A stretch of DNA of 64,000 bases from Haliotis asinina (Eukaryota > Mollusca > Gastropoda > Lepetellida > Haliotidae), in the NCBI RefSeq assembly GCF_037392515.1, contig NC_090280.1, positions 20,026,618 through 20,090,617 on the forward strand, written 5' to 3'. A program made the position numbers and the translations under genes. Numbering within the stretch: position 1 is the stretch's first letter; the number at the start of each line of letters is the position of its first letter. Shown here one piece after another: positions 38,059 through 64,000 of this stretch. The notes below the pieces were generated by a model. That model was given only the letters and a program-made list of their open reading frames with translations. It ran no database searches and was not told the origin of the DNA.

Positions 38059-38151
<93 letters not shown>

Positions 38152-45373: not shown

Positions 45374-45441
<68 letters not shown>

Positions 45442-48123
45442 GTCTGTCTATCTATCTGTCTATCTATCTATCTATCTATCTATCTACCCGCTAGGCACTT
45501 CTTTGCGCCGTTCTCGATGCGTAAGCATTCTGTTTAACAGATGCTACTATATGTTCAGACTGTGAGTAAAACGCTTTCTAAATTTCCTGCGAAATATTCC
45601 TGCTACTTGGTGAATATCACCTCACCTCCAACAATTGGCATAAATCAACCCCTTGAAGATCCGTGTTTGAAGGAAATCGTTATTTCGAAATTCAATTTAT
45701 CAATATTTACATGTACATACTGATTACATCCGGGTTAGAAATGGTCTTCAGTAACCCTTTACTTAGGAGGTGACTTATCCCATCTTATCCCAGTTGCGTA
45801 GATCAGTGCTCATGATGTTGATCACCTGTTCGTCTGACAAAGGCTCGACCATTCACAGACCGCCGTTATATTGCTAGAATATTGCTAACTACGGCGTTAC
45901 ACAAGACACTACGAAAACGTTCTAGTGTCACAGCCTGATTTTTTTATCTCCTAATTAGGACTTAATTTCTTCTAATTAGTACTTAATATCTCCTAATTAG
46001 AACTTAGTATCTCCTAATTAGTACATAGTATCTCCTAATTAGGACTTAGTATCTACTAATTAAGACTTATTAGAGTTTAGAGGTTTGCACTGGATCGGGG
46101 CAAGATGGTTACCTTCGTTGTCTCAACCTTGATTGGAGCAGCGTTTTTAATTGGAATTGGTTTTCATATGTCTGCGCCATCACTGTATTGGGATTCTTGA
46201 AAGGCATTTAGAAGTTGCTGAATATAATAAGACGAGTATACTGATGACAACTTCTTTTTATTGTCTAACACGACGTCTCGGTTCTTTTTCTTGCTCCTTC
46301 ATCAGGTGATAGAGACAGAAGTACAAGACATATTATATATATATACCAGTACTTACAGGAAGAAGACAAGCACATGTATATACAAACAAATCAAATGCAG
46401 TTATAAAAAAACAATGATAACAGGGATTAAGTGAAGCCGTTAACAGATGTGTACACAGCAGAGTCATATGCAGATAATTAGATTTACAGGAAGCTCAAGG
46501 TGGATAATATAGTCATTTGTTCTTATTTCAGAGTCGAGTGTCTATGAGATTGAGCCGCAAAGGGGCAGTACGAATGGAGGGACTCGCATCACGATAACAG
46601 GCCAGAGTAAGTACCGACATTTAAGGTCTGTGGGCTAGCCCTGTGTTTAAAGTGTCTGTTCGTCTTTCATGGATCCTGATTTCATTCCCCATATCAAAGC
46701 CCATTTCTGATGTCCCTTGTCGTGATACTGCTGAAATATTCCTAAAAACGGCGTAAAACTAAACTCACTCATTCAACCTTTATTTGTGAGATGGATGATA
46801 GTCGATTCTTCGCCTGTGTCAAGGTGCTGAGGTATTATGACCCTGCTTTTTGGGTGGATCAAACTATACCTTGTTCGCGTATTTGGGTGGATCAAACTAT
46901 ACCTTGTTCGCGTATTTGACACGAAGTTTTCGCGAATGCACGGACGCTTTTATCGCCTTAACATTAACACGGTCGCTAACGTAGCACGCAACGCAAGCGG
47001 TCCAGTTACGTCTAAGAAAGTAATGTAAACAGGAAATATTCAGGACTGAATGTTCAGTTAAAAACAAACAAATGTTCCTGAAAGTTTGCTTAACGCCTGG
47101 TTCTTGTTGAAACAAATTCAATAAATTCAATGGGACGTTTATTGAATTCGGTGTTATTGTTAACTTAATGTGTATTAATATTGATTAACCAAACCTAGAT
47201 ATGACAGATGCTCTCTTTCAGATTTCGCCCGGAACCTGTTCAACTTCGGAGATGGGAACAGTCATCTTGGAAACAAAGTGTTTCTTGTTTCTACCACCCG
47301 TAACTTCGAATGTACCATCCACCTCGACGGTTGCCATGAGGAACAGATCACGTGCTACACCCCGTACGTATAGACGCCACTGAGACTGTATGAGTGAGTT
47401 AATGTGTACCTTTAACGTAATCAATGCCACGGCAGGCTGCATGTGGGTCTTGAGATGTACCAAACATCCGCACACACTCAGAGGCACAGACGCACAGATA
47501 CACGAGTATAAGCACACACAATGACATTTTCATGCTATGTACACAGAGGTGCAAGACAGGCATTCAAGCGCTCTCACTTACACACGCACACTCATACACA
47601 CGTACACACGCACGGACTCTACCATCACAAGCATCCAATTTTGTTCGCATTTCAGGTTGGCCATGGATCCCGAAGATTGTCAGTATCGGTTTGTAACCTG
47701 AAGGATAGCCTGTTGGTTAATTTGTTCTTTTGTCAGACCTGAGTTCGATTCCCCTCAATGTGTACATGTACAATGTGTAAAGCATTTTCTTGCATTCTCC
47801 ACCGTGGTACTACGGGAATATTGCTAATAGCAGCGTAAAACTAAACTCACTCAATTACGTTTATGTTTTCAGCAAAATGCCGTCAGAAGAGTACAAGGTT
47901 CGGGTCTATGTGGATGGGGTTCGAATCCCGGATGAAAAGCACTGTAAAACGAATCCCCCAAAGTGCACCTTCAAGGTAAGAGTTTATTTCGTTTGTCGAT
48001 CTGTGTTTCACAAGAGTTTTATGCTGGAATGTAGTTACCATTTACTGTGGATGTTATATGATCACAGTTGCTACTACTACTACTACTACTAGTAGTAGTA
48101 GTAGTAGTAGTAGCAGCAGCAGC

Positions 48124-48210
<87 letters not shown>

Positions 48211-51200
48211 CATATTAAAGTTGATATTATCGTTTCAGCCCGAGGCACATTATACACCTACCATCGATTACATCGAGCCTACATCCGGACTTCCAGGTAA
48301 GGAAGGGTCTAATTATGAAACCTACAATCTTAGGGATTTGGGATTTACGATTCCCCTTGGGATCCCCTCTAGGATCTGTTTGTGCAGAGGGGACGGTGGG
48401 GTAGCCTACTCGTTAAGGTGTTCGCTCGTCACGTGGAAGCCCAGGGTTCTATTCCCCCCATGGGTACACTGAGTGAGCCTATTTCTCTTGTTTCCCGCCG
48501 TGATGTGCTTGATGTTTTGCTAAAAGCGGCGTAAAACTAAATTCATTCACTCACTTTGAGTAGAAGAAACTCTGGTCTGAAATTGAATGAAAACTCCCTG
48601 TTGTCCGTGTTGTTTGAGTTCATTAATTACTAAGGCTTGAGAAAATATTACATGTGAAAACGATGTCGTTCGGCTCATTAGTTGGTACCATGTTGCAGGG
48701 ACGCTAGTCAAGTACCGTGGACGTATCATCACAAGTCTGTTTGGTACCAATGAAGTACTCAGTACTAATGGACAGACGGCTCGGTTTGTTAGGTAGGTTG
48801 AAAACATGGGTTCAATTTGGGTGTTTAAATATGAATACTGACGGATCCAAGATTTTGGAGAAGTTGGAGAGGACATAAACCAGTCCAACAGTCGGATCCC
48901 AATAAACCGGACTTCATCGTTCATGTACTGGTGATTGTCAGTGTATCGATGGTGCTTTGCCGATACAGATATATCTTCAGTGTATCACGGATGTATTGCA
49001 TTGTAGATTTTATCGTTGACGTATTGCTGATGTTGGTATATCGCTGATGTATCGCTGATGTATCGTCGATGTATTGACGATGTATTGACGATGTGTTGCT
49101 AATGAAATCGTGGTTATACTGCTGTTGTAACGTTGGTGTATTGTTGATGAAACGATGACGTGAATAAAAGCTGAGTTACAGTACTCCTGACAGTGACTTA
49201 CTCTTACACGTGATGTTGCAGAGTCTACATGGGAGATAACCTCTGCGCACTGACGGACGAGGAAGGAGATACCCTGTAAGCAAGCGCTAACAGATATTGT
49301 TTTCATGGAAATGCTGACGATCAGACCTGTACATTGTGTCCGTGTAATGTAAATGTGTTCATGTAGCTATTACTATTTTAAGGTCAAGGACGTTGTCAGC
49401 GAAGCTGCCAGAACCGGATTTTAAACGATATGAACGCATATAAAAATCAGATCCATAATGGTCTGTCTGGACATTCTCGTAAAATATATACACGGTCATT
49501 ATTCAAGCATCAACGAGTTTCATATTCAAAATAGGAAAACACTACATGTTCAAGTATATACTTTCAAAATAACGTAAGCGTTATTTTTTTTCTGATTTAA
49601 GAAAAACCCTGAAATTTCGTAACAGTTTACTTGTACTCTGAGAAGAATACATTAAAATGTCTTGGCCTCCGTTTTTTTCTATTTAACGCCACACTAAGCG
49701 ATATTCCAGCTGTATTGCGGCTATAACGATACCAAACGATCCAGTGATCAACAGCGTGAGTATCGATATATACAACTGGGATAGGATGCCATTTGTCAAC
49801 CGTGTCAGTGATCCTGCCCAAACGATCCCGTTAGTCACCTGTCACGATAAATATTGGCTGCCCAAGACCAGTTCTAACCCGAATCTTCACAGGCCTAAAA
49901 CGCCATTGGAATCAGGTGGTGCTCTTGCTGACATATCATTGAAGGCCATAGTGTATTATCGCCATCATGCTAAGAGTAATACAAAGATACAACATGATAT
50001 CTTCCTCTGAAACGTATGCCTTTGTTGTAGCTTTGGGATTGGCCTTGACTCCGGAGGTCAAAGCTGGTGGGGGCAGCTCAAGTGCAAGCCGAGAACTACA
50101 TATGTGGGTGAGTTGATGGTGTATACCAAAACTATCGACATTGAGAGAGAGGAAGAGAGGGAGAGGGGAGTAAACGAGAGGAGGGAGTGAGGGTGAGAAG
50201 AAAGTGATGAGCAAATGAGATAGGACGGAATGAGGAGAGAGAAAAAGAAGGAGAGAGAGGAGTGAGTGAGTGAGTTTGGTTTTACGCCGCTTTTAGCAAT
50301 ATTCCAGCAATATCACGGCGGGGGACACCAGAAAATGGGCCTCAAACATTGTGCCCATGTGGGGAATCGAACCCTGGTCTTCGGCGTGACGAGCGAACGC
50401 TTTAACCACTAGGCTGCCCCGCCGCCCCAGGAGAGAGAGGAGGACAGCGAGTGAAATTATAGAAAGTGAGAGAAGAAAGGAGATTGAATGGAGAGAGGAG
50501 CGGAAGAGAGAGAGGAGGGTGGAGGGGGAGGCGTGTGAAATTATAGAAAGTGAGAGAGGAAGGAGATTGAATCGAGAGAGGAACGGAAGAGAAGAGAGAG
50601 AGTGAGTGTGTGTGAATATGTGATCGTAACCAAGAGGGAGAAAAGAGGAGAGAGAAATAGAGAGAAGAGGAACGAAACTGAAAGAGGAATGGGGAGAGAG
50701 AAGATAGATGTTATACTGGTAGAACGTTGAAGACGTATATTGAACAGTTGACGAAATACGACTATGTACTATTATACTCGTTAAATGTAATCACATCCTC
50801 CAAAAATCGAATCACTCAAGGAAAGGTAAAATGATGTATTTATGGAAAACCTTTACATAAGACCCACCGATGCGTGAGTTGTATCTGGCTACATGACGTG
50901 CAGTACGTACACGAAGGCCCCCAGAGACCCATTCGTCATACCCGAACTTCGCTACAGCACAATACTCTGAAATTGACTGAATGGAGAAATACTGATGCCG
51001 TTGAAATGACATTGCTGAATTCAGTCTACTGAATTAGTCATCGTGCATTTAGTTAGGTCGGGCACATATTTTGATTGATATGCGTGTTGCAAACTGCCAG
51101 TATAAAGAAGTAGAATTGACTACATCTTTGAGTTTGGCTTGTTTTTTGTTGTTTTGTTGGGGGGTTGTATTTTTGTTTGTTTGTTTGTTTGTTGTTGTTT

Positions 51201-54200
51201 TGTTTGGTTGGTTGATTTTTTATGTGTTTTTTTAATGCCGCTGTATGGCGGACCTTTCTGGAAACAAATTTGGACTAGACAATCCAGTGATCAACAGCAT
51301 GAGCATCGATCTACGTAATTGAGATGATAAGTGTTAACCAAATCAGCGTGCCTGAACAGTCGATCCCGTTAGTCACATTTACGACAACCATACGTTACTT
51401 TAGATCAATTCTAGCCAAGATCTTCCCGTTATAACTGTAGTTTACTGAGTGTATATGCAAAGTCTGTCCTGACGAGTGCGATCTAAAGAACACCAGAGCT
51501 GTTAGAAAAACATCGATTGAATCAGTCTCCTGTGTCGGTTATCACTGGGTGTTTTTGTCAGTATTTAAATCAATGTTTGTGTCTTTATTTTATGTGTCTC
51601 ACCGGTACACATGCAAATCAACTTACCCTCTCAAGCGAACAACGCTGCATTAATAATGCTCCGGTTTTAACGACTATTTGTCCCGTATTCATTATGACGA
51701 CATGCACAACGCACTAAGATCTTATCTTTTTTATTACCTTTCTTTTCTCGACATACCTCTTGTTTAATGGTTTACTCAGACAGATGTAGGAAAGTAACAC
51801 ACACATCACATCACCTGTCATGCTGTTCAGGCATGGACCAGCTCGCTGACACAATGGCACCGTTCCAGGTGTAGCGCTCTAAATTGAAAGCCGACACACA
51901 TTTGTGCTAACAGTGAAAAAAGCCTTTTTATTGTTTTGGGTTTTTTTATTGTATAATGGTTCGAGGTTACGTTTATCTGGTGTCAGGGGCATCTAGTGTG
52001 CTTTCGATCGTCTCTGGATTCGCTGAAAATCTCGTTGGTTCGAATCCAATTTCAAACCACTTATGGTCATTGGTGCGTGGATCCTCCTAAATGAAGTCTA
52101 GGGAAATGCGTGCTGTAATTCAAATCCGATGTAAGGCAGACATACAAACCGTTTCATTCAGCTCGAATTATTCGCAAAGCCTGTATCTTAATCGCTTTAT
52201 TTGATTGTTACTTAACGCAACGCTGAGCAACCTCTCAGGTAATTCACGGCGGATGAGGACGAGACAATCCATTCAACTATGTAAGAACTTGTGGAGGGAC
52301 ATGCAAATATGCAAGTTTTAAAGAAGGGTCATACGGTTCTACAAATATGTATACAGCTATACAATAAAGGGGCGGTGGGAAAGCCTTGTTGATAAAGCGT
52401 TGACTCATAACGCTGGTGATCCGGGTTTGATTCCCTAATTGGGTAGAATCTGTGAAGCACAGGTCTTGTGTTTCCCCGTTGTGACATTGCTGGAGGCATA
52501 AAACCATACTCACTCACTAACTCGATGCATTAAAAACATGGCTCATGCATATTCTAACGATGTTTTACGTTTCATGTATGCACAAATGATGAACCATGTT
52601 TCTAATGGTGTATCACATATTCCAGGCTTCATGAATGCCAGTTTCATCGTCGACCAATGGTTTGGAAGGTATGTACATTTTGTCTTGCAAGCCACGTGTT
52701 CGTGTTGAACGTTTTGACACTACGTTACCCGCAAAATGAAACTGTATACTGTTCAAGCATTCGTGTAAATATAATTCTTATTCCATATATCAAAACTAAA
52801 CTAGTGCTCAAAGGAAAGTATACTGCGTGGTTGACCAAACTTACAAAAACATATAAATTACAGTTCACATGGTCTTTTGGATTTCCCGTTAGTCACCACG
52901 TCCGGAAACCATTAGTCACCACGTTCCTGAAGCCATTGGTCACCACGTTCCGGAAACCCAAGGCGCCGTTTCACACAAAGCCGTCGTTGTGCAATGGTGA
53001 TCGTAAATCCCATACTTTAACATATACTTACGACGTCGTTGTGCTACGATCGCTGTGCGAAACTAGCCCAGTTCAACAACAAGACTCATCGGGTCACAGT
53101 AGAATTATGTTATGACTGGTTCGTCAACAGACATGCAGGAAAGTCTAAATTAGGGGCGATGAGGTAGGCTGAGGGTTAAAGCGTTCGGTTGTCGCTTTAT
53201 TTCTGGCGTCCGCCTCAATGATATTGTCGGAATATTGCTAAACGCAGTGGAAACTTTCAACCCGTTCATTTTGAAGTGCAAATGTTTTGACTGTAGGATC
53301 GCGTTCACGTCTTGACATTTAAAGGCAATAAGTTGAAGTAACACGCTGTGCCAGAGTGAAAAACTCGCCCGTACACAGACAAAGTCTATGAAGATTTAGT
53401 AATTATTGTTTAAAACTTCAAATGATTTTTTTCAGATCAAAACCCGATCTGGATACTCTTCGACCCAGCAGTACAGGGAAGATCTACATGTATCAGACAT
53501 ATGCTCGTATGTATCAGACACTCACATGGTGTTTCCAAACTTTCAGTTTTTTTCAGGAGACTGTACCAGTTTCAATTTATCAACGCGTGTGCCGTTGAAC
53601 AGAGTAATCTTAGCGCTAAAGTGACCGTAATTCCCCTTCCTTATCATCGACTTAGGTAGTCGTAGCGCTAAAGAGACCGTAATTCCCCTTCCTTACCATC
53701 GACTTAAGGTAGCGCTAAGTTTGTTTCGTACGGCGCTCAGTTCATTATTTCTTTAACGTTAATTCATTGCATATATCCATATATTTCTGTATCGTTTCAA
53801 ATAATGACTGGAATGGTCTGACATATGTATGTGAAACAGTAAGTATATGTCCTTATTGTTATTGAGACGTTCCCTGTTGCAGCTATCCACTCAATCAGTC
53901 CCAGCGAAGGCAGTGAGAAAGGAGGGACCAAACTGACTATTACTGGACAACACTTTGACGAGACTGACGGAAAGGTCAAGGTCATGATTGGAAGTAAGTT
54001 TTTTTTTACTGCAAACGTTGTTTCTATGTCATTGGGGGCGGTGGCGTAGTCTAGTGGTTAAAGCGTTCGCTCGTCACGCTGAAGACCCAGGTTCAATTTC
54101 CCACATGAGTACAATGGGTGAAGTCCTTTTCTGGTGTACCCTGCTGTGATATTGCAAGAGTAGTGCCAAAAACCGCGTAAAGCCATACTCACTCACTCGC

Positions 54201-55824
54201 TCAGTCTTGGTCACTGAGTCGCGTACATTTGTGTTCATATGCATGACGTCACCTTTTGGATGACGTCACGATATTATTACACAATAGTTAAAAGTTAGGG
54301 GCGGTGGGGTAACTATGGTCTGAGGACTATCACTGAATGCAGCTGCCATTTAGCAACCAAGGGACACAACCACGGTTGTATTTCGGGACTGATGACAACT
54401 CTCCGTGTTGATATAGTTTGCTTTCAAAAATCGGAGTTTGAAGTGGTTGTTTGTGGTGATTCGTGTAAAGTTGTATTTTTTGACGTTCATCATGGAGTTG
54501 CCTCCCGCGAGACACAGTCTTCATCAGTTGGTGACCATATAAAATCCTTAAGTGAAAGTACCTTATTTCACGGAGGTATACAAACTGACTTCGAAATGTT
54601 TCGTCATGACCTCCAGCAGTATTTCGCGCAGCTGACGTGACCTTCCAGCGAAGCGCAACGCCATTGGCCGATGCAGTTTTATGTCGTATATATGCAGACT
54701 TCAAACTCTCTCTTGTGTTTGTTCCAGACACGGAATGTCGAGTGACAGAGCCTGTGACAGACACGCAGATTATCTGTGAGACGGCTGAAGCTCCTGCTGC
54801 GGCGGTCAATTACGAAGGTAGGCGAATATCCCCTCTCTTACCTTTCCCTGAGTGACTCAATGTTTGGCAGATCCGATGACACTTAATTAGTATAATAGTC
54901 CATAGCCGTAATGGCTTAAGTGCTAAATGTGCACAACCTTCGACCATCACCTTTCTAGCTCAGACGTCTCTCTCCTCTCTCATTTTCACTTTCTTTCCTG
55001 CTCTCACTGTTTCATTCTCCCCCTCTCTCTCCACTTTCACTCTTTCTTCTGCTCCCACTTCTCTTAATTTCACTCATAATCTTGTTTCTTCTCTCCTCTT
55101 CTTCTCATCCTCGTCATCCAGTTCACTCTCTTTCGTCCTCTCACTTTCACTCTCTCCTCTCTTTCCTTAATTTCACCCTCGTTCGTTCTGTCTCTTCTCT
55201 AAATTTCACTCGTTCTCTATCTCTTTATTGCTTTCCCCAACTGTCTCTCTCTCACACAGTCACACAGACACACACACAGGCACAGACAGACAGACAGACA
55301 GACGCACACACGCACACACACACTTACATGGATGTTACAGATCCGTCAGGATGAGAAGGGTGTTTATTAATCGACATTTGTCTTGAGTGTTAAATCGACA
55401 GTTTTGAAGTTTTGGGGGCACACGACTTCATGGATAACATTCTAATATTCGAAACATGTAGATTCTTGCACCCTTTAATAATGTGATCACGATGTAAGTA
55501 TCTACACCGAAATGTCTCTCTATGCAATAAATACAAGACGCTTGTATTATTATCTATTAAGGTGGTCGAGGGTTGAAGTTCGAGCTATGGAACACCAGCA
55601 TGACAAACCTTAAGGACTTCAGTACGTTGACAACGTCCGCCGCCGACTACTACGCGGGGACGATCGACAGCGGCTACTACAAGGACATGAACTCAATGGA
55701 CAGGTTCAACGTCAGGGCTTCGGGATACTTCGTAGCTCCTCATACATCCGACTATCGTTTCTACATCATGGCAGATGATAACGCTGAACTTTACCTCAGC
55801 AATAGTACCAATCCTGAGAACAAG
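34384..55824 (+). CDS. PKHD1L1-like: Fibrocystin-L (PKHD1L1)-like protein, N-terminal part, 13 exons
   Basis: Joining exons 34384-34480, 46532-46606, 47222-47363, 47873-47975, 48239-48296, 48699-48792, 49222-49275, 50031-50107, 52626-52668, 53436-53506, 53883-53993, 54728-54817 and 55562-55824 gives 1,278 nt, 426 codons, no stop and matched phases at every junction. Order: signal peptide (1-30), IPT/TIG 1 (about 35-135; [19 protein letters not shown]), IPT/TIG 2 (about 145-232; [15 protein letters not shown]), linker with MYQTYA, IPT/TIG 3 (about 272-337; [18 protein letters not shown]), start of PA14 (from 340; [11 protein letters not shown]). PKHD1L1 proteins have this order at the N-terminus and continue to about 4,200 residues with more TIG domains, G8 domains, parallel beta-helix repeats and one C-terminal membrane helix. 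In vertebrates the protein is found on the cell surface, including the stereocilia coat of hair cells. The window holds roughly the first tenth. I see no frameshift. PKHD1 itself also has TIG domains, but the match in the linker and PA14 start favours the L1 form. Confidence 0.9.
36000..36260. repeat. (ACT)n/(CTG)n trinucleotide cluster
   Basis: Interrupted runs of ACT, TGC and CTA trinucleotides over about 250 bases. Apparent Thr/Ala/Leu homopolymer peptides come from this. Confidence 0.9.
36640..36880 (+). repeat. Dispersed repeat B
   Basis: GCGTAACGCCACATTCAACA, ATGTTCCAGCTATACATCAG, TAGTGATCAATAGCATGAGT, GAGTCAACCAAGTTAGCAG and TAACCCGGATCTTCACGG. Forms an inverted pair with the next copy. 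Confidence 0.8.
36930..37140 (-). repeat. Dispersed repeat B, inverted relative to the previous copy
   Basis: ACTGGTCTTCAGCAACACAT, CACTCACTGACTTGGCCCAT, TCAGTCACTGGTTTGTCTAT and ACACGATTATTTATTTGACA. Only about 50 bases separate it from the + strand copy. Confidence 0.75.
38060..38148. repeat. (AC)n microsatellite, about 44 repeats
   Basis: Perfect, uninterrupted AC run of 89 bases, followed by GTGTATATAT. Confidence 0.98.
38246..39126. mobile_element. TA-flanked terminal-inverted-repeat element (Tc1/mariner type, non-autonomous)
   Basis: The left end CGAGGGGTCTCCCAAAAGTA and the right end, read on the other strand as CGACGGGTGTCCCAAAGGTG, match over about 24 bases with few differences. 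Each end is flanked by TA (38244-38245 and 39127-39128), the target duplication of Tc1/mariner transposons. The element is 881 bp, AT-rich, and contains no transposase frame that I can identify, so it is a deletion derivative or a decayed copy. Confidence 0.7.
40785..40870. repeat. TAGCGCT-containing dispersed repeat
   Basis: ACCTTAGCGCTGAGGCTGTC and GTCACCGTAGCGCTACGA resemble the units at 32040-32150 and 53605-53740. Confidence 0.45.
41425..41540. repeat. Short inverted repeat, possible MITE
   Basis: GAACAACAAAAGAAACGCAA (about 41427-41446) and the complement of GCGTTTCTTTTTCTGTTCC (about 41519-41537) form imperfect inverted ends about 115 bp apart. No target duplication could be fixed. 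Confidence 0.4.
42195..42275. repeat. Dispersed repeat C fragment
   Basis: ACAACGAAACTCTTGTAACT and TCCCTTTGAGTTCGTTTTAA resemble 10795-10960. Similar words (ACAACGAAACCTCCTAAATC) are at 39963-39985. Confidence 0.4.
42620..43013 (+). mobile_element. Possible LINE reverse transcriptase relic
   Basis: The 152-codon open frame ending at 43013 contains [20 protein letters not shown] then GLYN, which resembles the thumb region of some LINE polymerases (GLNPL...W..V.LP..LYG). An upstream [13 protein letters not shown] fits the preceding LGV-type strand. The rest is degraded and there is no palm motif. It lies inside intron 1 in the sense direction. Confidence 0.35.
44206..44320. repeat. (TATC)n and (ACTC)n microsatellites
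   Basis: TATC/TGTC runs at about 44208-44229 and interrupted ACTC runs at 44265-44315. Confidence 0.9.
44321..45373. other. Intron 1, nothing recognised
   Basis: No supported exon or repeat. Confidence 0.35.
45374..45486. repeat. (ATCT)n microsatellite, about 28 repeats
   Basis: ATCT tetranucleotide run with a few GTCT interruptions near 45441-45460. Confidence 0.97.
45728..45915 (-). repeat. Dispersed repeat B
   Basis: CGGGTTAGAAATGGTCTTCA, CAGTTGCGTAGATCAGTGCT, ATGTTGATCACCTGTTCGTC and ATTCACAGACCGCCGTTATA, ending ACTACGGCGTTACAC. Confidence 0.75.
45946..46071. repeat. 21-bp minisatellite, 6 copies
   Basis: The unit is close to ATCTCCTAATTAGGACTTAG plus T. Copies differ at two or three positions. 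The CTAATTAG core is itself palindromic. Confidence 0.9.
46532..46606 (+). CDS. PKHD1L1-like: Exon 2, start of IPT/TIG domain 1
   Basis: Acceptor TTATTTCAG, donor A|GTAAGT, phase 1 to phase 1, 75 nt. Encodes [12 protein letters not shown] then [12 protein letters not shown], the first strands of a TIG domain with the usual (I)xPxxGSxxGGTxITITG signature. Confidence 0.9.
46628..46777 (+). mobile_element. tRNA-derived SINE in intron 2
   Basis: Head worn. GTGTTTAAAGTGTCTGTTCG, ATTTCATTCCCCATAT (B box changed), CCCATTTCTGATGTCCC and GCGTAAAACTAAACTCACTC. It starts about 20 bases after the exon 2 donor. Confidence 0.7.
47222..47363 (+). CDS. PKHD1L1-like: Exon 3, IPT/TIG domain 1
   Basis: Acceptor CTCTTTCAG, donor CCC|GTACGT (weaker than the others), 142 nt, phase 1 to 2. 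Encodes [28 protein letters not shown] and [10 protein letters not shown]. The two cysteines and the ITCYT motif are characteristic of the first fibrocystin-L TIG domain. Confidence 0.9.
47700..47855 (+). mobile_element. tRNA-derived SINE ending next to exon 4
   Basis: AGGATAGCCTGTTGGTTAAT (A box), GAGTTCGATTCCCCTCAATG (B box), GGTACTACGGGAATATTGCT and GCGTAAAACTAAACTCACTC. It ends only about 17 bases before exon 4, so its tail forms part of the 3' splice region. Confidence 0.8.
47873..47975 (+). CDS. PKHD1L1-like: Exon 4, end of IPT/TIG domain 1
   Basis: Acceptor TATGTTTTCAG, donor AAG|GTAAGA, 103 nt, phase 2 to 0. Encodes [19 protein letters not shown] and KCTFK, matching the YxVRVxVDG strand and final cysteine of the domain. 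Confidence 0.92.
48071..48210. repeat. (ACT)n/(AGT)n trinucleotide array next to exon 5
   Basis: About 46 trinucleotides, first ACT, then AGT with a short AGC patch. It ends 28 bases before exon 5. The two halves are complementary, so the RNA could fold into a hairpin. Confidence 0.97.
48239..48296 (+). CDS. PKHD1L1-like: Exon 5, start of IPT/TIG domain 2
   Basis: Acceptor ATCGTTTCAG, donor CAG|GTAAGG, 58 nt, phase 0 to 1. Encodes [19 protein letters not shown], a TIG start with the PTSGLPG turn. Confidence 0.9.
48387..48560 (+). mobile_element. tRNA-derived SINE in intron 5
   Basis: GGACGGTGGGGTAGCCTACT (A box), TTCGCTCGTCACGTGGAAGC, GGGTTCTATTCCCCCCATGG (B box) and GCGGCGTAAAACTAAATTCA, then ACTCACTT. 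Confidence 0.85.
48699..48792 (+). CDS. PKHD1L1-like: Exon 6, IPT/TIG domain 2
   Basis: Acceptor CATGTTGCAG, donor TTAG|GTAGGT, 94 nt, phase 1 to 2. Encodes [19 protein letters not shown] and TARFV, the strand pair that in PKHD1L1 reads TLIxIxGRIxTxxYGSN. Confidence 0.9.
48930..49160. repeat. Degenerate minisatellite around GATGTAT
   Basis: Repeats of about 12 bases (GATGTATCGCTG and variants such as GATGTATTGACG) over 200 bases, clearest at 49010-49105. Confidence 0.8.
49222..49275 (+). CDS. PKHD1L1-like: Exon 7, IPT/TIG domain 2
   Basis: Acceptor TGATGTTGCAG, donor CCT|GTAAGC, 54 nt, phase 2 to 2. Encodes [17 protein letters not shown], the VYxGxxxC strand of the TIG fold. Confidence 0.88.
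49276..49679. other. Intron 7, nothing recognised
   Basis: AT-rich, no repeat named. Confidence 0.35.
49680..49895 (+). repeat. Dispersed repeat B in intron 7
   Basis: AACGCCACACTAAGCGATAT, CGATCCAGTGATCAACAGCG, CATTTGTCAACCGTGTCAG, CGATCCCGTTAGTCACCTG and TAACCCGAATCTTCACAGG. Confidence 0.8.
50031..50107 (+). CDS. PKHD1L1-like: Exon 8, end of IPT/TIG domain 2
   Basis: Acceptor TTTGTTGTAG, donor TGG|GTGAGT, 77 nt, phase 2 to 1. Encodes [19 protein letters not shown] and TTYVG, closing the domain with its second cysteine. Confidence 0.88.
50125..50261. repeat. Purine-rich GA tract, part 1
   Basis: GAGAGAGAGGAAGAG words on the + strand. The tract is interrupted by a SINE and resumes at 50431. 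Confidence 0.85.
50262..50430 (-). mobile_element. tRNA-derived SINE, full length, inside the GA tract
   Basis: The best preserved SINE in the window. Read on + strand: GAGTGAGTGAGTTTGGTTTT, ACGCCGCTTTTAGCAATATT, CCAGCAATATCACGGCGGGG, GGGGAATCGAACCCTGGTCT (B box complement) and TTAACCACTAGGCTGCCCC (A box complement). GA-rich sequence follows on both sides, so it inserted into the tract. Confidence 0.92.
50431..50700. repeat. Purine-rich GA tract, part 2
   Basis: Continues the GAGAGGAG words. A segment with AAATTATAGAAAGTGAGAGA occurs twice (about 50454 and 50540), showing a local duplication of about 85 bp. Confidence 0.85.
50701..51219. other. Intron 8, nothing recognised
   Basis: Ends in a T/G-rich low-complexity run (51134-51235). 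No exon. Confidence 0.35.
51228..51435 (+). repeat. Dispersed repeat B in intron 8
   Basis: ATGCCGCTGTATGGCGGACC, AGACAATCCAGTGATCAACA, GCATGAGCATCGATCTACG, TCGATCCCGTTAGTCACAT and TCTAGCCAAGATCTTCCCG. Confidence 0.8.
51436..52203. other. Intron 8, nothing recognised
   Basis: No supported feature. Confidence 0.35.
52204..52285 (+). repeat. Dispersed repeat B, 5' fragment
   Basis: TTACTTAACGCAACGCTGAG, CACGGCGGATGAGGACGAGA and CAATCCATTCAAC. Confidence 0.5.
52369..52522 (+). mobile_element. tRNA-derived SINE in intron 8
   Basis: GGGGCGGTGGGAAAGCCTTG, TAAAGCGTTGACTCATAACG, CCGGGTTTGATTCCCTAATT (B box), GTTGTGACATTGCTGG and CATAAAACCATACTCACTCA. Confidence 0.85.
52626..52668 (+). CDS. PKHD1L1-like: Exon 9, linker after TIG 2
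   Basis: Acceptor ATATTCCAG, donor AAG|GTATGT, 43 nt, phase 1 to 2. Encodes [13 protein letters not shown]. Very short, but it joins in frame on both sides and matches the position of the family sequence HNVSFILDNDYG. Confidence 0.82.
52889..52960. repeat. 24-bp tandem repeat, 3 copies
   Basis: TTAGTCACCACGTCCGGAAA and two near copies follow without gap. An open frame of 152 codons (52657-53115) runs through it but ignores the exon 9 donor, so it is not coding. Confidence 0.85.
53153..53262 (+). mobile_element. tRNA-derived SINE, internally deleted
   Basis: GGGGCGATGAGGTAGGCTGA, GGGTTAAAGCGTTCGGTTG, then directly TTTCTGGCGTCCGCCTCAAT and GGAATATTGCTAAACGCAG. The B box part is missing. Confidence 0.75.
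53436..53506 (+). CDS. PKHD1L1-like: Exon 10, linker before TIG 3
   Basis: Acceptor TTTTTTTCAG, donor CTC|GTATGT, 71 nt, phase 2 to 1. Encodes [19 protein letters not shown] then QTYA. The FQTYAE-like motif just before TIG 3 is a good landmark of fibrocystin-L. Confidence 0.88.
53605..53740. repeat. Tandem duplication of about 54 bp with TAGCGCTAAAG
   Basis: Two copies of TAGCGCTAAAG(T/A)GACCGTAATTCCCCTTCCTTA-type sequence (split here: TAGCGCTAAAG, GACCGTAATTCCCCTTCC) plus a third partial GTAGCGCTAAG. It resembles 32040-32150 and 40785-40870. Confidence 0.8.
53883..53993 (+). CDS. PKHD1L1-like: Exon 11, IPT/TIG domain 3
   Basis: Acceptor CCTGTTGCAG, donor GAA|GTAAGT, 111 nt, phase 1 to 1. 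Encodes [20 protein letters not shown] and [13 protein letters not shown], a textbook TIG first half. Confidence 0.93.
54031..54206 (+). mobile_element. tRNA-derived SINE in intron 11
   Basis: GGGGGCGGTGGCGTAGTCTA, GTGGTTAAAGCGTTCGCTCG (A box), CAGGTTCAATTTCCCACATG (B box) and GCGTAAAGCCATACTCACTC. It lies 37 bases after the exon 11 donor. A second SINE head (GGGGCGGTGGGGTAAC) is at 54299-54314. Confidence 0.88.
54207..54727. other. Intron 11, unclassified
   Basis: Holds ATGACGTCACCTTTTGGATG, in which TGACGTCA occurs twice (54243-54250 and 54261-54268), a CRE-like word. A 159-codon frame on the opposite strand overlaps exon 12 and is a shadow. Confidence 0.4.
54728..54817 (+). CDS. PKHD1L1-like: Exon 12, end of IPT/TIG domain 3
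   Basis: Acceptor TTTGTTCCAG, donor AAG|GTAGGC, 90 nt, phase 1 to 1. Encodes [20 protein letters not shown] and AVNYE. The two cysteines fit the PCxI...ICxT pattern of this domain. Confidence 0.92.
54955..55335. repeat. Pyrimidine-rich tract with CA/CAGA runs
   Basis: About 300 bases of CTCTC/TTTCACTC words, then CACACAGACA repeats at 55253-55322. It precedes exon 13 by about 230 bases. Confidence 0.9.
55562..55824 (+). CDS. PKHD1L1-like: Exon 13, start of PA14 domain
   Basis: Acceptor TCTATTAAG, which lacks a good pyrimidine tract, donor AACAAG|GTAACG, 263 nt, phase 1 to 0. Encodes [11 protein letters not shown], then [34 protein letters not shown] and NSTNPENK. The motif GYFxAP...YxFYIxADDxAELYLS is diagnostic of PA14, a beta-barrel thought to bind carbohydrate. 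The last 45 nt of this exon plus GT are the founder of the 47-bp array that follows. If the splice donor in a later unit were used instead, the frame would break, because the unit is not a multiple of three and contains TAA. Confidence 0.92.
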
Positions 55825-58800
55825 GTAACGCTGAACTTTACCTCAGCAATAGTACCAATCCTGAGAACAAGGTAACGCTGAACTTTACCTCAGCAATAGT
55901 ACCAATCCTGAGAACAAGGTAACGCTGAACTTTACCTCAGCAATAATACCAATCCTGAGACCAAGGTAACTCTGAACTTTACCTCAGCAATAGTACCAAT
56001 CCTGAGAACAAGGTAACTCTGAACTTTACCTCAGCAATAATACCAATCCTGAGAACAAGGTAACTCTGAACTTTACCTCAGCAATAATACCCATCCTGAG
56101 AACAAGGTAACTCTGAACTTTACCTCAGCAATAGTACCAATCCTGAGAACAAGGTAACTCTGAACTTTACCTCAGCAATAATACCAATCCTGAGAACAAG
56201 GTAACTCTGAACTTTACCTCAGCAATAATACCAATCCTGAGAGCAAGGTAACTCTGAACTTTACCTCAACAATAATACCAATCCTGAGAACAAGGTAACT
56301 CTGAACTTTACCTCAGCAATAGTACCAATCCTGAGAACAAGGTAACTCTGAACTTTACCTCAGCAATAGTACCAATCCTGAGAACAAGGTAACTCTGAAC
56401 TTTACCTCAGCAATAATACCAATCCTGAGAACAAGGTAACTCTGAACTTTACCTCAGCAATAATACCAATCCTGAGAACAAGGTAACTCTGAACTTTACC
56501 TCAGCAATAATACCAATCCTGAGAACAAGGTAACTCTGAACTTTACCTCAGCAATAGTACCAATCCTGAGAACAAGGTAACTCTGAACTTTACGTCAGCA
56601 ATAGTACCAATCCTGAGAACAAGGTAACTCTGAACTTTACCTCAGCAATAATACCAATCCTGAGAACAAGGTAACTCTGAACTTTACCTCAGCAATAATA
56701 CCAATCCTGAGAGCAAGGTAACTCTGAACTTTACCTCAGCAATAGTACCAATCCTGAGAACAAGGTAACGCTGAACTTTACCTCAGCAATAGTACCAATC
56801 CTGAGAACAAGGTAACGCTGAACTTTACCTCAGCAATAGTACCAATCCTGAGAACAAGGTAACTCTGAACTTTACCTCAGCAAAAATACCAATCCTGAGA
56901 CCAAGGTAACTCTGAACTTTACCTCAGCAATAGTACCAATCCTGAGAACAAGGTAACTCTGAACTTTACCTCAGCAATAATACCAATCCTGAGAACAAGG
57001 TAACTCTGAACTTTACCTCAGCAATAATACCAATCCTGAGAACAAGGTAACTCTGAACTTTACCTCAGCAATAGTACCAATCCTGAGAACAAGGTAACTC
57101 TGAACTTTACCTCAGCAATAATACCAATCCTGAGAACAAGGTAACTCTGAACTTTACCTCAGCAATAATACCAATCCTGAGAGCAAGGAAACTCTGAACT
57201 TTACCTCAACAATAATACCAATCCTGAGAACAAGGTAACTCTGAACTTTACCTCAGCAATAATACCAATCCTGAGAACAAGGTAACTCTGAACTTTACCT
57301 CAGCAATAGTACCAATCCTGAGAACAAGGTAACTCTGAACTTTACCTCAGCAATAATACCAATCCTGAGAACAAGGTAACTCTGAACTTTACCTCAGCAA
57401 TAATACCAATCCTAAGAACAAGGTAACTCTGAACTTTACCTCAGCAATAATACCAATCCTGAGAACAAGGTAACTCTGAACTTTACCTCAGCAATAGTAC
57501 CAATCCTGAGAACAAGGTAACTCTGAACATTACCTCAGCAATAGTACCAATCCTGAGAACAAGGTAACTCTGAACTATACCTCAGCAATAATACCAATCC
57601 TGAGAACAAGGTAACTCTGAACTTTACCTCAGCAATAATACCAATCCTGAGAACAAGGTAACTCTGAACTTTACCTCAGCAATAGTACCAATCCTGAGAA
57701 CAAGGCAACTCTGAACTCTACCTCAGCAATAGTACCAATCCTGAGAACAAGGTAACTCTGAACTTTACCTCAGCAATAATACCAATCCTGAGAACAAGGT
57801 AACTCTGAACTTTACCTCAGCAATAATACCAATCCTGAGAGCAAGGTAACTCTGAACTTTACCTCAGCAATAATACCAATCCTGAGAACAAGGTAACTCT
57901 GAACTTTACCTCACCAATAGTACCAATCCTGAGAACAAGGTAACTCTGAACTTTACCTCAGCAATAACACCAATCCTGAGAACAAGGTAACTCTGAACTT
58001 TACCTCAGCAATAATACCAATCCTGAGAAAAAGGTAACTCTGAACTTTACCTCAGCAATAATACCAATCCTGAGAACAATGAAACTCTGAACTTTACCTC
58101 AGCAATAGTACCAATCCTGAGAACAAGGTAAATCTGAACTTTACCTCAGCAATAATACCAATCATGAGAACAAGGTAAATCTGAACTATACCTCAGCAAT
58201 AGTACCAATCATGAGAACAAGGTAACTCTGAACTTTACCTCAGCAATAATACCAATCCTGAGAACAAGGTAACTCTGAACTTTACCTCAGCAATAGTACC
58301 AATCCTGAGAACAAGGTAACTCTGAACTTTACCTCAGCAATAATACCAATCCTGAGAACAAGGCAACGCTGAACATTACCTCAGCAATAATACCAATCCT
58401 GAGAACAAGGTAACGCTGAACATTACCTCAGCAATAGTACCAATCCTGAGAACAAGGTAACTCTGAACTTTACCTCAGCAATAATACCAATCCTGAGAAC
58501 AAGGTAACTCTGAACTTTACCTCAGCAATAATACCAATCCTGAGAACAAGGTAACTCTGAACTTTACCTCAGCAATAATACCAATCCTGAGAACAAGGTA
58601 ACTCTGAACTTTACCTCAGCAATAATACCAATCCTGAGAACAAGGTAACTCTGAACTTTACCTCAGCAATAATACCAATCCTGAGAGCAAGGTAACTCCG
58701 AACTTTACCTCAGCAATAGTACCAATCCTGAGAACAAGGTAACTCTGAACTCTACCTCAGCAATAATACCAATCCTGAGAACAAGGTAACGCTGAACATT

Positions 58801-61800
58801 ACCTCAGCAATAGTACCAATCCTGAGAACAAGGTAAATCTGAACTTTACCTCAGCAATAATACCAATCCTGAGAACAAGGTAAACCTGAACTATACCTCA
58901 GCAATAATACCAATCCTGAGAACAAGGTAAATCTGAACTTTACCTCAGAAATAATACCAATCCTGAGAGCAAGGTAACGCTGAACATTACCTCAGCAATA
59001 GTACCAATCCTGAGAACAAGGTAACTCTGAACTTTACCTCAGCAATAATACCAATCCTGAAAACAAGGTAACTCTGAACTTTACCTCAGCAATAATACCA
59101 ATCCTGAGAACAAGGTAACTCTGAACTTTACCTCAGCAATAATACCAATCCTGAGAACAAGGTAACTCTGAACTTTACCTCAGCAATAATACCAATCCTG
59201 AGAACAAGGTAACTCTGAACATTACCTCAGCAATAGTACCAATCCTGAGAACAAGGTAACTCTGAACTTTACCTCAGCAATAGTACCAATCCTGAGAACA
59301 AGGAAACTCTGAACTGTACCTCAGCAATAATGCCAATCCTGAGAACAAGGTAACTCTGAACTTTACCTCAGCAATAATACCAATCCTGAGAACAAGGTAA
59401 CTCTGAACTTTACCTCAGCAATAATACCACTCCTGAGAACAAGGTGACTCTGAACTTTACCTCAGCAATAGTACCAATCCTGAGAGCAAGGTAACTCTGA
59501 ACTTTACCTCAGCAATAATACCAATCCTGAGAACAAGGTAACTCTGAACTTTACCTCAGCAATAATACCAATCCTGAGAACAAGGTAACTCTGAACTTTA
59601 CCTCCGCAATAGTACCAATCCTGAGAACAAGGCAACTCTGAACTCTACCTCAGCAATAGTACCAATCCTGAGAACAAGGTAACTCTGAACTTTACCTCAG
59701 CAATAATACCAATCCTGAGAGCAAGGTAACTCTGAACTTTACCTCAGCAATAATACCAATCCTGAGAGCAAGGTAACTCTGAACTTTACCTCAGCAATAA
59801 TACCAATCCTGAGAACAAGGTAACTCTGAACTTTACCTCACCAATAATACCAATCCTGAGAACAAGGTAACTCTGAACTTTACCTCAGCAATAACACCAA
59901 TCCTGAGAACAAGGTAACTCTGAACTTTACCTCAGCAATAATACCAATCCTGAGAAAAAGGTAACTCTGAACTTTACCTCAGCAATAATACCAATCCTGA
60001 GAACAATGAAACTCTGAACTTTACCTCAGCAATAGTACCAATCCTGAGAACAAGGTAAATCTGAACTTTACCTCAGCAATAATACCAATCCTGAGAACAA
60101 GGTAAATCTGAACTATACCTCAGCAATAGTACCAATCCTGAGAACAAGGTAACTCCGAACTTTACCTCAGCAATAATACCAATCCTGAGAACAAGGTAAC
60201 TCTGAACTTTACCTCAGCAATAATACCAATCCTGAGAACAAGGTAACTCTGAACTTTACCTCAGCAATAATACCAATCCTGAGAACAAGGTAACGCTGAA
60301 CATTACCTCAGCAATAGTACCAATCCTGAGAACAAGGTAACTCTGAACTTTACCTCAGCAATAATACCAATCCTGAGAACAAGGTAACTCTGAACTTTAC
60401 CTCAGCAATAATACCAATCCTGAGAACAAGGTAACTCTGAACTTTACCTCAGCAATAATACCAATCCTGAGAACAAGGTAACTCTGAACTTTACCTCAGC
60501 AATAATACCAATCCTGAGAACAAGGTAACTCTGAACATTACCTCAGCAATAGTACCAATCCTGAGAACAAGGTAACTCTGAACTTTACCTCAGCAATAGT
60601 ACCAATCCTGAGAACAAGGAAACTCTGAACTGTACCTCAGCAATAATACCAATCCTGAGAACAAGGTAACTCTGAACTTTACCTCAGCAATAATACCACT
60701 CCTGAGAACAAGGTGACTCTGAACTTTACCTCAGCAATAGTACCAATCCTGAGAGCAAGGTAACTCTGAACTTTACCTCAGCAATAATACCAATCCTGAG
60801 AACAAGGTAACTCTGAACTTTACCTCAGCAATAATACCAATCCTGAGAACAAGGTAACTCTGAACTTTACCTCAGCAATAGTACCAATCCTGAGAACAAG
60901 GCAACTCTGAACTTTACCTCAGCAATAGTACCAATCCTGAGAACAAGGTAACTCTGAACTTTACCTCAGCAATAATACCAATCCTGAGAGCAAGGTAACT
61001 CTGAACTTTACCTCAGCAATAATACCAATCCTGAGAACAAGGTAACTCTGAACTTTACCTCACCAATAGTACCAATCCTGAGAACAAGGTAAATCTGAAC
61101 TTTACCTCAGCAATAACACCAATCCTGAGAACAAGGTAACTCTGAACTTTACCTCAGCAATAATACCAATCCTGAGAACAAGGTAACTCTGAACTTTACC
61201 TCAGCAATAATACCAATCCTGAGAACAATGAAACTCTGAACTTTACCTCAGCAATAGTACCAATCCTGAGAACAAGGTAAATCTGAACTTTACCTCAGCA
61301 ATAATACCAATCCTGAGAACAAGGTAAATCTGAACTATACCTCAGCAATAGTACCAATCCTGAGAACAAGGTAACTCTGAACTTTACCTCAGCAATAATA
61401 CCAATCCTGAGAACAAGGTAACTCTGAACTTTACCTCAGCAATAATACCAATCCTGAGAACAAGGTAACTCTGAACTTTACCTCAGCAATAATACCAATC
61501 CTGAGAACAAGGTAACTCTGAACTTTACCTCAGCAATAATACCAATCCTGAGAACAAGGTAACGCTGAACATTACCTCAGCAATAGTACCAATCCTGAGA
61601 ACAAGGTAACTCTGAACTTTACCTCAGCAATAATACCAATCCTGAGAACAAGGTAACTCTGAACTTTACCTCAGCAATAATACCAATCCTGAGAACAAGG
61701 TAACTCTGAACTTTACCTCAGCAATAATACCAATCCTGAGAACAAGGTAACTCTGAACTTTACCTCAGCAATAATACCAATCCTGAGAACAAGGTAACTT

Positions 61801-64000
61801 TGAACTTTACCTCAGCAATAATACCAATCCTGAGAGCAAGGTAACTCCGAACTTTACCTCAGCAATAGTACCAATCCTGAGAACAAGGTAACTCTGAACT
61901 TTACCTCAGCAATAGTACCAATCCTGAGAACAAGGTAACGCTGAACATTACCTCAGCAATAGTACCAATCCTGAGAACAAGGTAAATCTGAACTTTACCT
62001 CAGCAATAATGCCAATCCTGAGAACAAGGTAAATCTGAACTATACCTCAGCAATAATACCAATCTTGAGAACAAGGTAACTCTGAACTTTACCTCAGCAA
62101 TAATACCAATCCTGAGAACAAGGTAACGCTGAACATTACCTCAGCAATAGTACCAATCCTGAGAACAAGGTAACTCTGAACTTTACCTCAGCAATAATAC
62201 CAATCCTGAGAACAAGGTAACTCTGAACTTTACCTCAGCAATAATACCAATCCTGAGAACAAGGTAACTCTGAACTTTACCTCAGCAATAATACCAATCC
62301 TGAGAACAAGGTAACTCTGAACTTTACCTCAGCAATAATACCAATCCTGAGAACAAGGTAACTCTGAACATTACCTCAGCAATAATACCAATCCTGAGAA
62401 CAAGGTAACTCTGAACTTTACCTCAGCAATAATACCAATCCTGAGAGCAAGGTAACTCTGAACTTTACCTCAGCAATAATACCAATCCTGAGAACAAGGT
62501 AACTCTGAACTTTACCTCACCAATAGTACCAATCCTGAGAACAAGGTAAATCTGAACTTTACCTCAGCAATAACACCAATCCTGAGAACAAGGTAACTCT
62601 GAACTTTACCTCAGCAATAATACCAATCCTGAGAACAAGGTAACTCTGAACTTTACCTCAGCAATAATACCAATCCTGAGAACAATGAAACTCTGAACTT
62701 TACCTCAGCAATAGTACCAATCCTGAGAACAAGGTAAATCTGAACTTTACCTGAGCAATAATACCAATCCTGAGAACAAGGTAAATCTGAACTATACCTC
62801 AGCAATAGTACCAATCCTGAGAACAAGGTAACTCTGAACTTTACCTCAGCAATAATACCAATCCTGAGAACAAGGTAACTCTGAACTTTACCTCAGCAAT
62901 AATACCAATCCTGAGAACAAGGTAACTCTGAACTTTACCTCAGCAATAATACCAATCCTGAGAACAAGGTAACTCTGAACTTTACCTCAGCAATAATACC
63001 AATCCTGAGAACAAGGTAACGCTGAACATTACCTCAGCAATAGTACCAATCCTGAGAACAAGGTAACTCTGAACTTTACCTCAGCAATAATACCAATCCT
63101 GAGAACAAGGTAACTCTGAACTTTACCTCAGCAATAATACCAATCCTGAGAACAAGGTAACTCTGAACTTTACCTCAGCAATAATACCAATCCTGAGAAC
63201 AAGGTAACTCTGAACTTTACCTCAGCAATAATACCAATCCTGAGAACAAGGTAACTCTGAACTTTACCTCAGCAATAATACCAATCCTGAGAGCAAGGTA
63301 ACTCCGAACTTTACCTCAGCAATAGTACCAATCCTGAGAACAAGGTAACTCTGAACTTTACCTCAGCAATAGTACCAATCCTGAGAACAAGGTAACGCTG
63401 AACATTACCTCAGCAATAGTGCCAATCCTGAGAACAAGGTAACTCTGAACTTTACCTCAGCAATAATGCCAATCCTGAGAACAAGGTAAATCTGAACTAT
63501 ACCTCAGCAATAATACCAATCCTGAGAATAAGGTAACTCTGAACTTTACCTCAGCAATAATACCAATCCTGAGAACAAGGTAACGCTGAACATTACCTCA
63601 GCAATAGTACCAATCCTGAGAACAAGGTAACTCTGAACTTTACCTCAGCAATAATACCAATCCTGAGAACAAGGTAACTCTGAACTTTACCTCAGCAATA
63701 ATACCAATCCTGAGAACAAGGTAACTCTGAACTTTACCTCAGCAATAATACCAATCCTGAGAACAAGGTAACTCTGAACTTTACCTCAGCAATAATACCA
63801 ATCCTGAGAACAAGGTAACTCTGAACATTACCTCAGCAATAATACCAATCCTGAGAACAAGGTAACTCTGAACTTTACCTCAGCAATAATACCAATCCTG
63901 AGAACAAGGTAACTCTGAACTGTACCTCAGCAATAATACCACTCCTGAGAACAAGGTAACTCTGAACTTTACCTCAGCAATAATACCAATCCTGAGAACT
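55780..64000. repeat. 47-bp minisatellite derived from the PA14 exon end and its splice donor, about 175 copies
   Basis: The first unit (55780-55826) is the coding end of exon 13 plus GT. The unit is AACGCTGAACTTTACCTCAG, CAATAGTACCAATCCTGAGA, ACAAGGT in order. Counting from 55780 in steps of 47, unit 175 begins exactly at 63958, so there is no net gain or loss of bases in 8.2 kb. Copies differ only by substitutions (AACG/AACT, AGTACC/ATACC, GAACAAGG/GAGCAAGG/GACCAAGG, AACTCTG/AAATCTG). Marker variants recur at fixed spacings: CAATGAAAC at 58081, 60008, 61230, 62687 and TCACCAAT at 57911, 59838, 61060, 62517 (41, 26 and 31 units), and GACCAAGG at 55961 and 56901 (20 units), showing higher-order duplications. 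All six frames are closed within short distances. The array runs to the window end, where the final base differs from the unit. Confidence 0.97.

Follow-up and report, generated by a model that had tools for sequence, protein, structure and literature searches.

This locus raises the question of how a gene can carry, at the end of one of its coding exons, a long series of copies of its own 5' splice site (splice donor), and what that series may do. The gene is a fibrocystin-like gene of the gastropod Haliotis asinina, and the window, i.e., the whole stretch of DNA that was analysed, spans 64,000 nucleotides (nt) of contig NC_090280.1 (C1:20026618-20090617, forward strand) in one assembly only, of 1.14 Gb and 159 contigs. 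We conclude that the series is probably a minisatellite anchored on the splice donor, which has passively lengthened the 5' part of an intron out of the exon's own 3' end. The features on which this reading depends are listed below; positions are in window numbering throughout, also beyond 64,000, and a slash marks the exon-intron boundary.

55780..64000, plus strand: in-window part of the 47-bp tandem array, from repeat finding and decomposition; it runs on to 64294, outside the window.
55562..55824, plus strand: PA14-type coding exon, entered in phase 1 and left in phase 0, ending ..AACAAG/GTAACG, with its last 45 nt in array copy 1.
55825..55826, plus strand: the first (authentic) donor GT, the sole frame-keeping donor of 181, at the same position in the paralog.
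55825..64000, plus strand: in-window part of the intron, which as a whole covers 55825-65760 (9,936 nt).
65761-65852, plus strand, outside the window: the next exon, reading VLMAKSNVDRK.., in phase 0, which continues the frame.

The 47-bp unit is repeated without insertions or deletions from 55780 to the window end, giving 174 full copies and 43 nt by our own decomposition, while Tandem Repeats Finder (TRF) reports 55779-63999 with a period of 47, 174.9 copies, 96% matches, 0% indels, and a score of 15119. A sequence-only reading of the window had counted about 175 tandem copies, which holds for the window, but the window edge cuts the array and the genome total is 181 full copies plus 8 nt, ending at 64294 (181.2 copies by TRF over the whole array). 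The terminal partial unit is AACTCTGA at 64287-64294, followed by GTTCCACAAC. Copy 1 (55780-55826) consists of 45 exon nt and GT, so that the same reading was right to derive the unit from the last 45 nt of the PA14 exon and its donor GT. All 181 full copies are 47 nt long and differ by substitutions; copies 1, 2, and 3 are mutually identical, consensus identity averages 97.7% over the 181 copies, mean pairwise divergence between units is 4.0%, and 52 distinct unit types are present. The motif AAGGT is found within the unit, and the donor dinucleotide is GT in 170 copies, GC in 4, and GA in 7, with GT kept in 169 of the 180 copies beyond the first. We also observed that copies 1-3 (55780-55920) match the coding copy, and that the array consensus departs from this copy in two places, A to S and S to N; both differences are amino-acid changing, and array-to-exon conversion would alter the protein.

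Regarding uniqueness, a search of the 1.14-Gb assembly with a 34-nt unit core (up to 3 mismatches) returned 181 forward and 0 reverse matches, a number equal to the array's own copy count, and the places listed all lie inside the array; a reversed-pattern control gave 0. Long arrays assemble poorly, and it might be supposed that all of the array, or the greater part of it, is unreal, or that its copy number is wrong. This one, however, lies within a single 106-Mb contig, and the 170 kb of surrounding sequence that was read contains no N; its flanks are unique, and its 52 unit types form ordered blocks with their own variants. We consider an assembly artefact quite improbable, and we rejected it as the main explanation on the grounds of the blocks, the unique flanks, and the single contig.

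The exon end from which the array starts is placed correctly, as judged from PA14 homology, the paralog boundary, and the in-frame next exon. The 88-aa exon matches the Pfam family PF07691 (PA14) with an E value of 2e-8 over profile positions 29-80 of 147, the homology reaching residue 83 of 88, and it matches PDB chain 6qdi_A (E 4.2e-9). A search of the animal's own genome with this exon found two places, the query exon and one at C1:45133971 that is 52% identical to it. The latter ends at the homologous codon, AAACAAG/GTGACT, with the same phase-0 boundary, and is followed by an 884-nt intron without an array and then by an exon starting VKMCEAS. The possibility that the true exon end lies elsewhere, which the sequence-only reading had named as a check on itself, is argued against by this paralog and by the in-frame next exon. 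Because the paralog has the same exon boundary and an 884-nt intron that lacks an array, the intron is very likely older than the array, which now makes up 8,470 nt (55825-64294, from coordinates) of its 9,936 nt.

The paralogous chain is collinear along the gene in 48 blocks, from 47215 to 118394, two of which are weak (E 0.09 and 0.4); weak chain rows beyond these limits are probably due to chance. Because of these 48 collinear blocks, the array-bearing gene looks intact. The chain includes the exon that precedes the PA14 exon, whose protein match to the paralog covers 54727-54804 (E 2e-7):

54728..54817, plus strand: the coding exon before the PA14 exon, ending ..GAAG/GTAGGC in phase 1, edges read from the sequence.

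Among seven downstream exons compared with Pfam, one matched TIG (E 1.5e-8), one matched G8 (E 4.6e-6), one stayed below threshold, and four had no match. PA14, IPT/TIG, and G8 are thus found in one gene, a combination which we take to be the architecture of fibrocystin-L, although no named fibrocystin-L protein was matched directly. Other searches returned nothing: Rfam gave 0 matches, Pfam on nine other window fragments gave 0 of 9 above the curated cut-off and on one further fragment 0, a PDB search with a long downstream exon gave 0, and a pattern scan of viral contigs gave 0. A search for protein homologues with the 88-aa exon produced no candidate, full-length relatives being outside its length limits.

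How the array may have begun is suggested by a pair of near-identical 9-mers at its two edges, the exonic one being:

55779..55787, plus strand: exonic TAACGCTGA, near-identical to TAACTCTGA at the right edge (64286-64294); it is proposed to have seeded the duplication that started the array.

The sequence at the right edge is AAGG TAACTCTGA GTTCC and that in the exon GA TAACGCTGA ACTTT, so that the right-edge partial unit agrees with the exonic 9-mer at 8 of 9 positions; moreover, an exonic TAAC lies 47 nt upstream of the TAAC at the donor. The ancestral exon end would have read ..GATAACGCTGA, then 34 nt, then AAG/GTAACTCTGAGTTCC.., with the 9-mers TAACGCTGA and TAACTCTGA 47 nt apart astride the donor, and slippage or unequal exchange between them would have produced the first tandem copy. 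Such a pair would also account for the two main variants of unit position 4, which is T in 163 of the 181 copies, as at the intron edge, G in 17, as in the exon, and C in one. The seed is offered conditionally, since a unit shortened by deletion would leave a like edge. In the paralog, the exon has a TGAC 50 nt before the TGAC of its GTGAC donor (L015 1713-1766), a similar potential seed that is unexpanded.

The unit variants show that the array grew to 181 copies partly by block copying, in blocks of roughly 26-41 units. In a gapped alignment, units 40-141 align with units 81-172 with a score of 146.8, the best of 10 shuffles reaching 17.5; units 40-74 match 108-141, and units 44-74 match 142-172. 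Exact unit runs recur at lags of 26, 27, 28, 31, 41, and 98, in an analysis of higher-order structure that is weaker than the gapped one. These block duplications imply that the array changed length in the past. The expansion would have been tolerated because everything past the first donor is intron.

Arrays of this kind have precedents. In humans, intron 18 of ABCA7 holds a variable number tandem repeat (VNTR) whose 25-bp unit takes in the exon-18 donor, with GT as the first two bases of the unit; alleles have ~12 to ~427 copies and reach 10,678 bp (PMC5954066). As in the Haliotis gene, the unit contains the donor GT, runs head-to-tail into the intron, varies slightly between copies, and reaches the kilobase scale; the unit here differs in having 47 bp rather than 25 bp, 45 of the 47 nt being exonic, and lies in a different gene and a different phylum. 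The 31-bp VNTR of human CBS, c.1444_1467+7(16_21), is numbered such that 24 nt of the unit are exonic and 7 intronic (PMC2630376); it likewise crosses an exon-intron boundary with a constant unit length and substitutions, but has 16-21 copies as against 181. The idea that no donor array of this size had been described was therefore mistaken, given the ~427 copies of ABCA7 (PMC5954066) and the boundary-spanning repeat of CBS (PMC2630376). In potato, tandem duplication of an exonic sequence holding AGGT turned a copy into an intron (PMC4974935), whereas the Haliotis array extended the 5' end of an intron that was already there and created no new one. Human segmental duplications contain internal tandem repeats at exon-intron boundaries that altered gene structure, and these are short arrays, averaging 30-bp units in 4 copies (PMC2812944). 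The Haliotis array has the traits of a donor-anchored VNTR: its unit contains the donor, copy 1 overlaps the exon end, and the copies are head-to-tail, of constant length, and distinguished by substitutions. On its sequence, then, it is of a kind already known, and a large member of it, made almost wholly of exon sequence, in a distant animal; the literature searches found no report of this array among the papers listed.

What the later copies mean for the transcript is determined first by the reading frame. When the two exons are joined with 0 to 181 retained units between them, the frame is open only at 0; each of the 180 later donor positions (1 to 180 retained units are real positions) leads to a premature stop. 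The frameshift and stop predicted by the sequence-only reading for later donors are thus borne out in 180 of 180 cases by translation, and its statement that the intron opens with an array of donor copies stands, with the number corrected to 180 further positions, 169 of them with GT. It follows from the translation, and by extension would hold for the RNA, that all later copies are intron, so that a first donor whose strength is average within the gene would suffice, the others being ignored or leaking into stop-bearing transcripts that decay. The alternative that part of the array is retained and translated, giving a longer PA14 domain, has in its favour the first 16 codons beyond the exon, which are open; the frame then ends at a TAA within the second unit retained, 47 is not divisible by 3, and all 180 alternatives stop. 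We regard this as scarcely credible and rejected it because of the stops.

Splice-site strength was scored with human-type frequencies, and the yardstick is 46 donors and 47 acceptors chosen by script in the gene, some of which are probably wrong. The exon blocks behind it were 46 of the 48 chain rows (52619-52678 and 118143-118394 were dropped), to which the PA14 exon and the post-array exon were added by hand to give 48; the donor yardstick used 46 blocks, the same set without 48233-48301 and 65761-65852. On this scale the first donor reaches 7.5 bits, above 22 of the 46 gene donors, itself included, and the common later donor reaches 8.8 bits; the predicted U1 pairing is the same for both, -6.5 kcal/mol. 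Score alone does not favour the first donor, and its use, which we infer from the frame, would therefore have to depend on position or exon definition.

Several points weigh against passive lengthening. Most later donors outscore the first (153 of 180; 14 match it and 13 fall below it). Where a donor is duplicated, moreover, the intron-proximal copy is often reported to be preferred, so that the first donor may not be the only one used. The right-edge 9-mer could be a unit shortened by a later deletion. Finally, two further arrays that span junctions of the same gene might hint at something special about it; they are taken up below.

The first of these points also speaks for a functional alternative, in which the 180 later donors compete with the first and form a brake whose strength depends on array length: a share of the transcripts would be diverted to stop-bearing products, which would set the protein dose. 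All 180 alternatives stop, 153 of them beat the first donor, and sites of at least 7.5 bits are dense in the array, at 19.9 per kb (169 in 8,473 bp) versus 1.4 per kb downstream (66 in 48,147 bp); in addition, array length in ABCA7 alters splicing of the next exon (PMC5954066). On the other side, the paralog has no array, and one-unit retention in ABCA7 is, in the same source, independent of array length (PMC5954066). The donor positions, moreover, are no more conserved than their neighbours: the eight positions of the donor region average 4.4 non-consensus copies versus 2.3 elsewhere (positions 4 and 26 left out), the copies being related by descent and such counts non-independent. Being slightly more variable than the rest of the unit, they show no sign of selection keeping the later donors, and because they are no better conserved we read the later donors as passive. 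An evolved donor array was rejected on this ground, and we think the brake unlikely. Similarly doubtful is a donor ladder, in which leakage past the first of 181 near-identical positions would set the protein dose by array length, with expression differing between individuals. The sequence-only reading had proposed a sink for U1 or a brake, which none of the results supports, although lowered expression from the array is possible. The sink was set aside as a matter of judgement, 181 sites per pre-mRNA being few compared with U1 abundance, and a folded-RNA role was rejected because four units give -29.6 kcal/mol against a mean of -25.75 in 200 shuffles (z -1.04).

ABCA7 also indicates the expected cost of passive lengthening. 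There, retention of one unit causes a frameshift, the frame-shifting isoforms amount to 14 +/- 6% and 2 +/- 1%, neither dependent on array length, and skipping of exon 19 rose with array length (PMC5954066); by our reading, the 14% isoform comes from a cryptic acceptor of exon 18 and the 2% isoform from one-unit retention. By analogy, in the Haliotis gene a few per cent of transcripts would be expected to be spliced from the second donor, and a longer array might cause the exon after it to be skipped more often.

The units might in principle also serve as acceptors, with recursive splicing or 25-nt pseudo-exons within the array, since the consensus unit contains TTTACCTCAG with a donor 25 nt further on, and AAG/GT includes the proto-splice site AGGT. 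The best unit acceptor, however, scores 0.47 bits, above only 4 of the 47 gene acceptors, and among the AGs present in 48 kb of the gene, 12% score at least as high; AAG/GT scores -7.04 as an acceptor, and none of the 47 gene acceptors is lower. By score only, no usable acceptor lies directly before the donor. Recursive splicing was rejected because of these weak acceptors, and acceptor use in general is very improbable.

The two further arrays that span junctions of the gene, both found by TRF, are:

83779-83991 (C1:20110396-20110608): 51-bp unit x 4.1, spanning the donor ACAT/GTAAGG.
93727-93780 (C1:20120344-20120397): 20-bp unit x 2.7, spanning an acceptor, with three AG/GTGAGT copies.

In the 51-bp array three later donors follow at distances of 54, 105, and 156 nt, each in frame and open. 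They score 8.07, 8.07, and 7.75, the first donor scores 8.07, and the frame that runs through the array is open until 84065; the later donors would add 18, 35, or 52 residues, and if they were used the protein would be lengthened rather than broken. The AG/GTGAGT copies of the 20-bp array are also consensus-like donors (12.1-12.3 bits) and form a ratchet-like motif where a long exon begins. TRF arrays with a period of at least 8 touch 3 of 48 coding blocks of the gene versus 0 of 48 in the paralog, whose collinear region (C1:45122369-45178067) has 0 junction-touching arrays at 96 approximate exon edges. A placement test, based on approximate exon edges and arrays with a period of at least 10, found 3 of 96 exon edges touched versus a mean of 17.5 under random placement, or 2 versus 7.2 without the large array. 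Exons repel arrays, and an enrichment of junction arrays in this gene was rejected because random placement would yield more of them. TRF also listed long microsatellites, perfect or nearly so, namely AC x44 (38061-38148) and ATCT x28 (45374-45486), upstream of the gene's first block found, and TAG x40 (48090-48210), in an intron.

The effect of the array is probably small unless the RNA uses later donors, and the brake idea, unsupported as it is, is testable. The locus offers a natural test of 5' splice site choice among about 180 near-identical neighbours, with the predictions that the first donor is used, that there is leakage to later donors, and that the next exon is skipped. It also provides an example of 5' intron lengthening from an exon's own sequence, and the array would extend the type represented by human ABCA7 and CBS beyond mammals.

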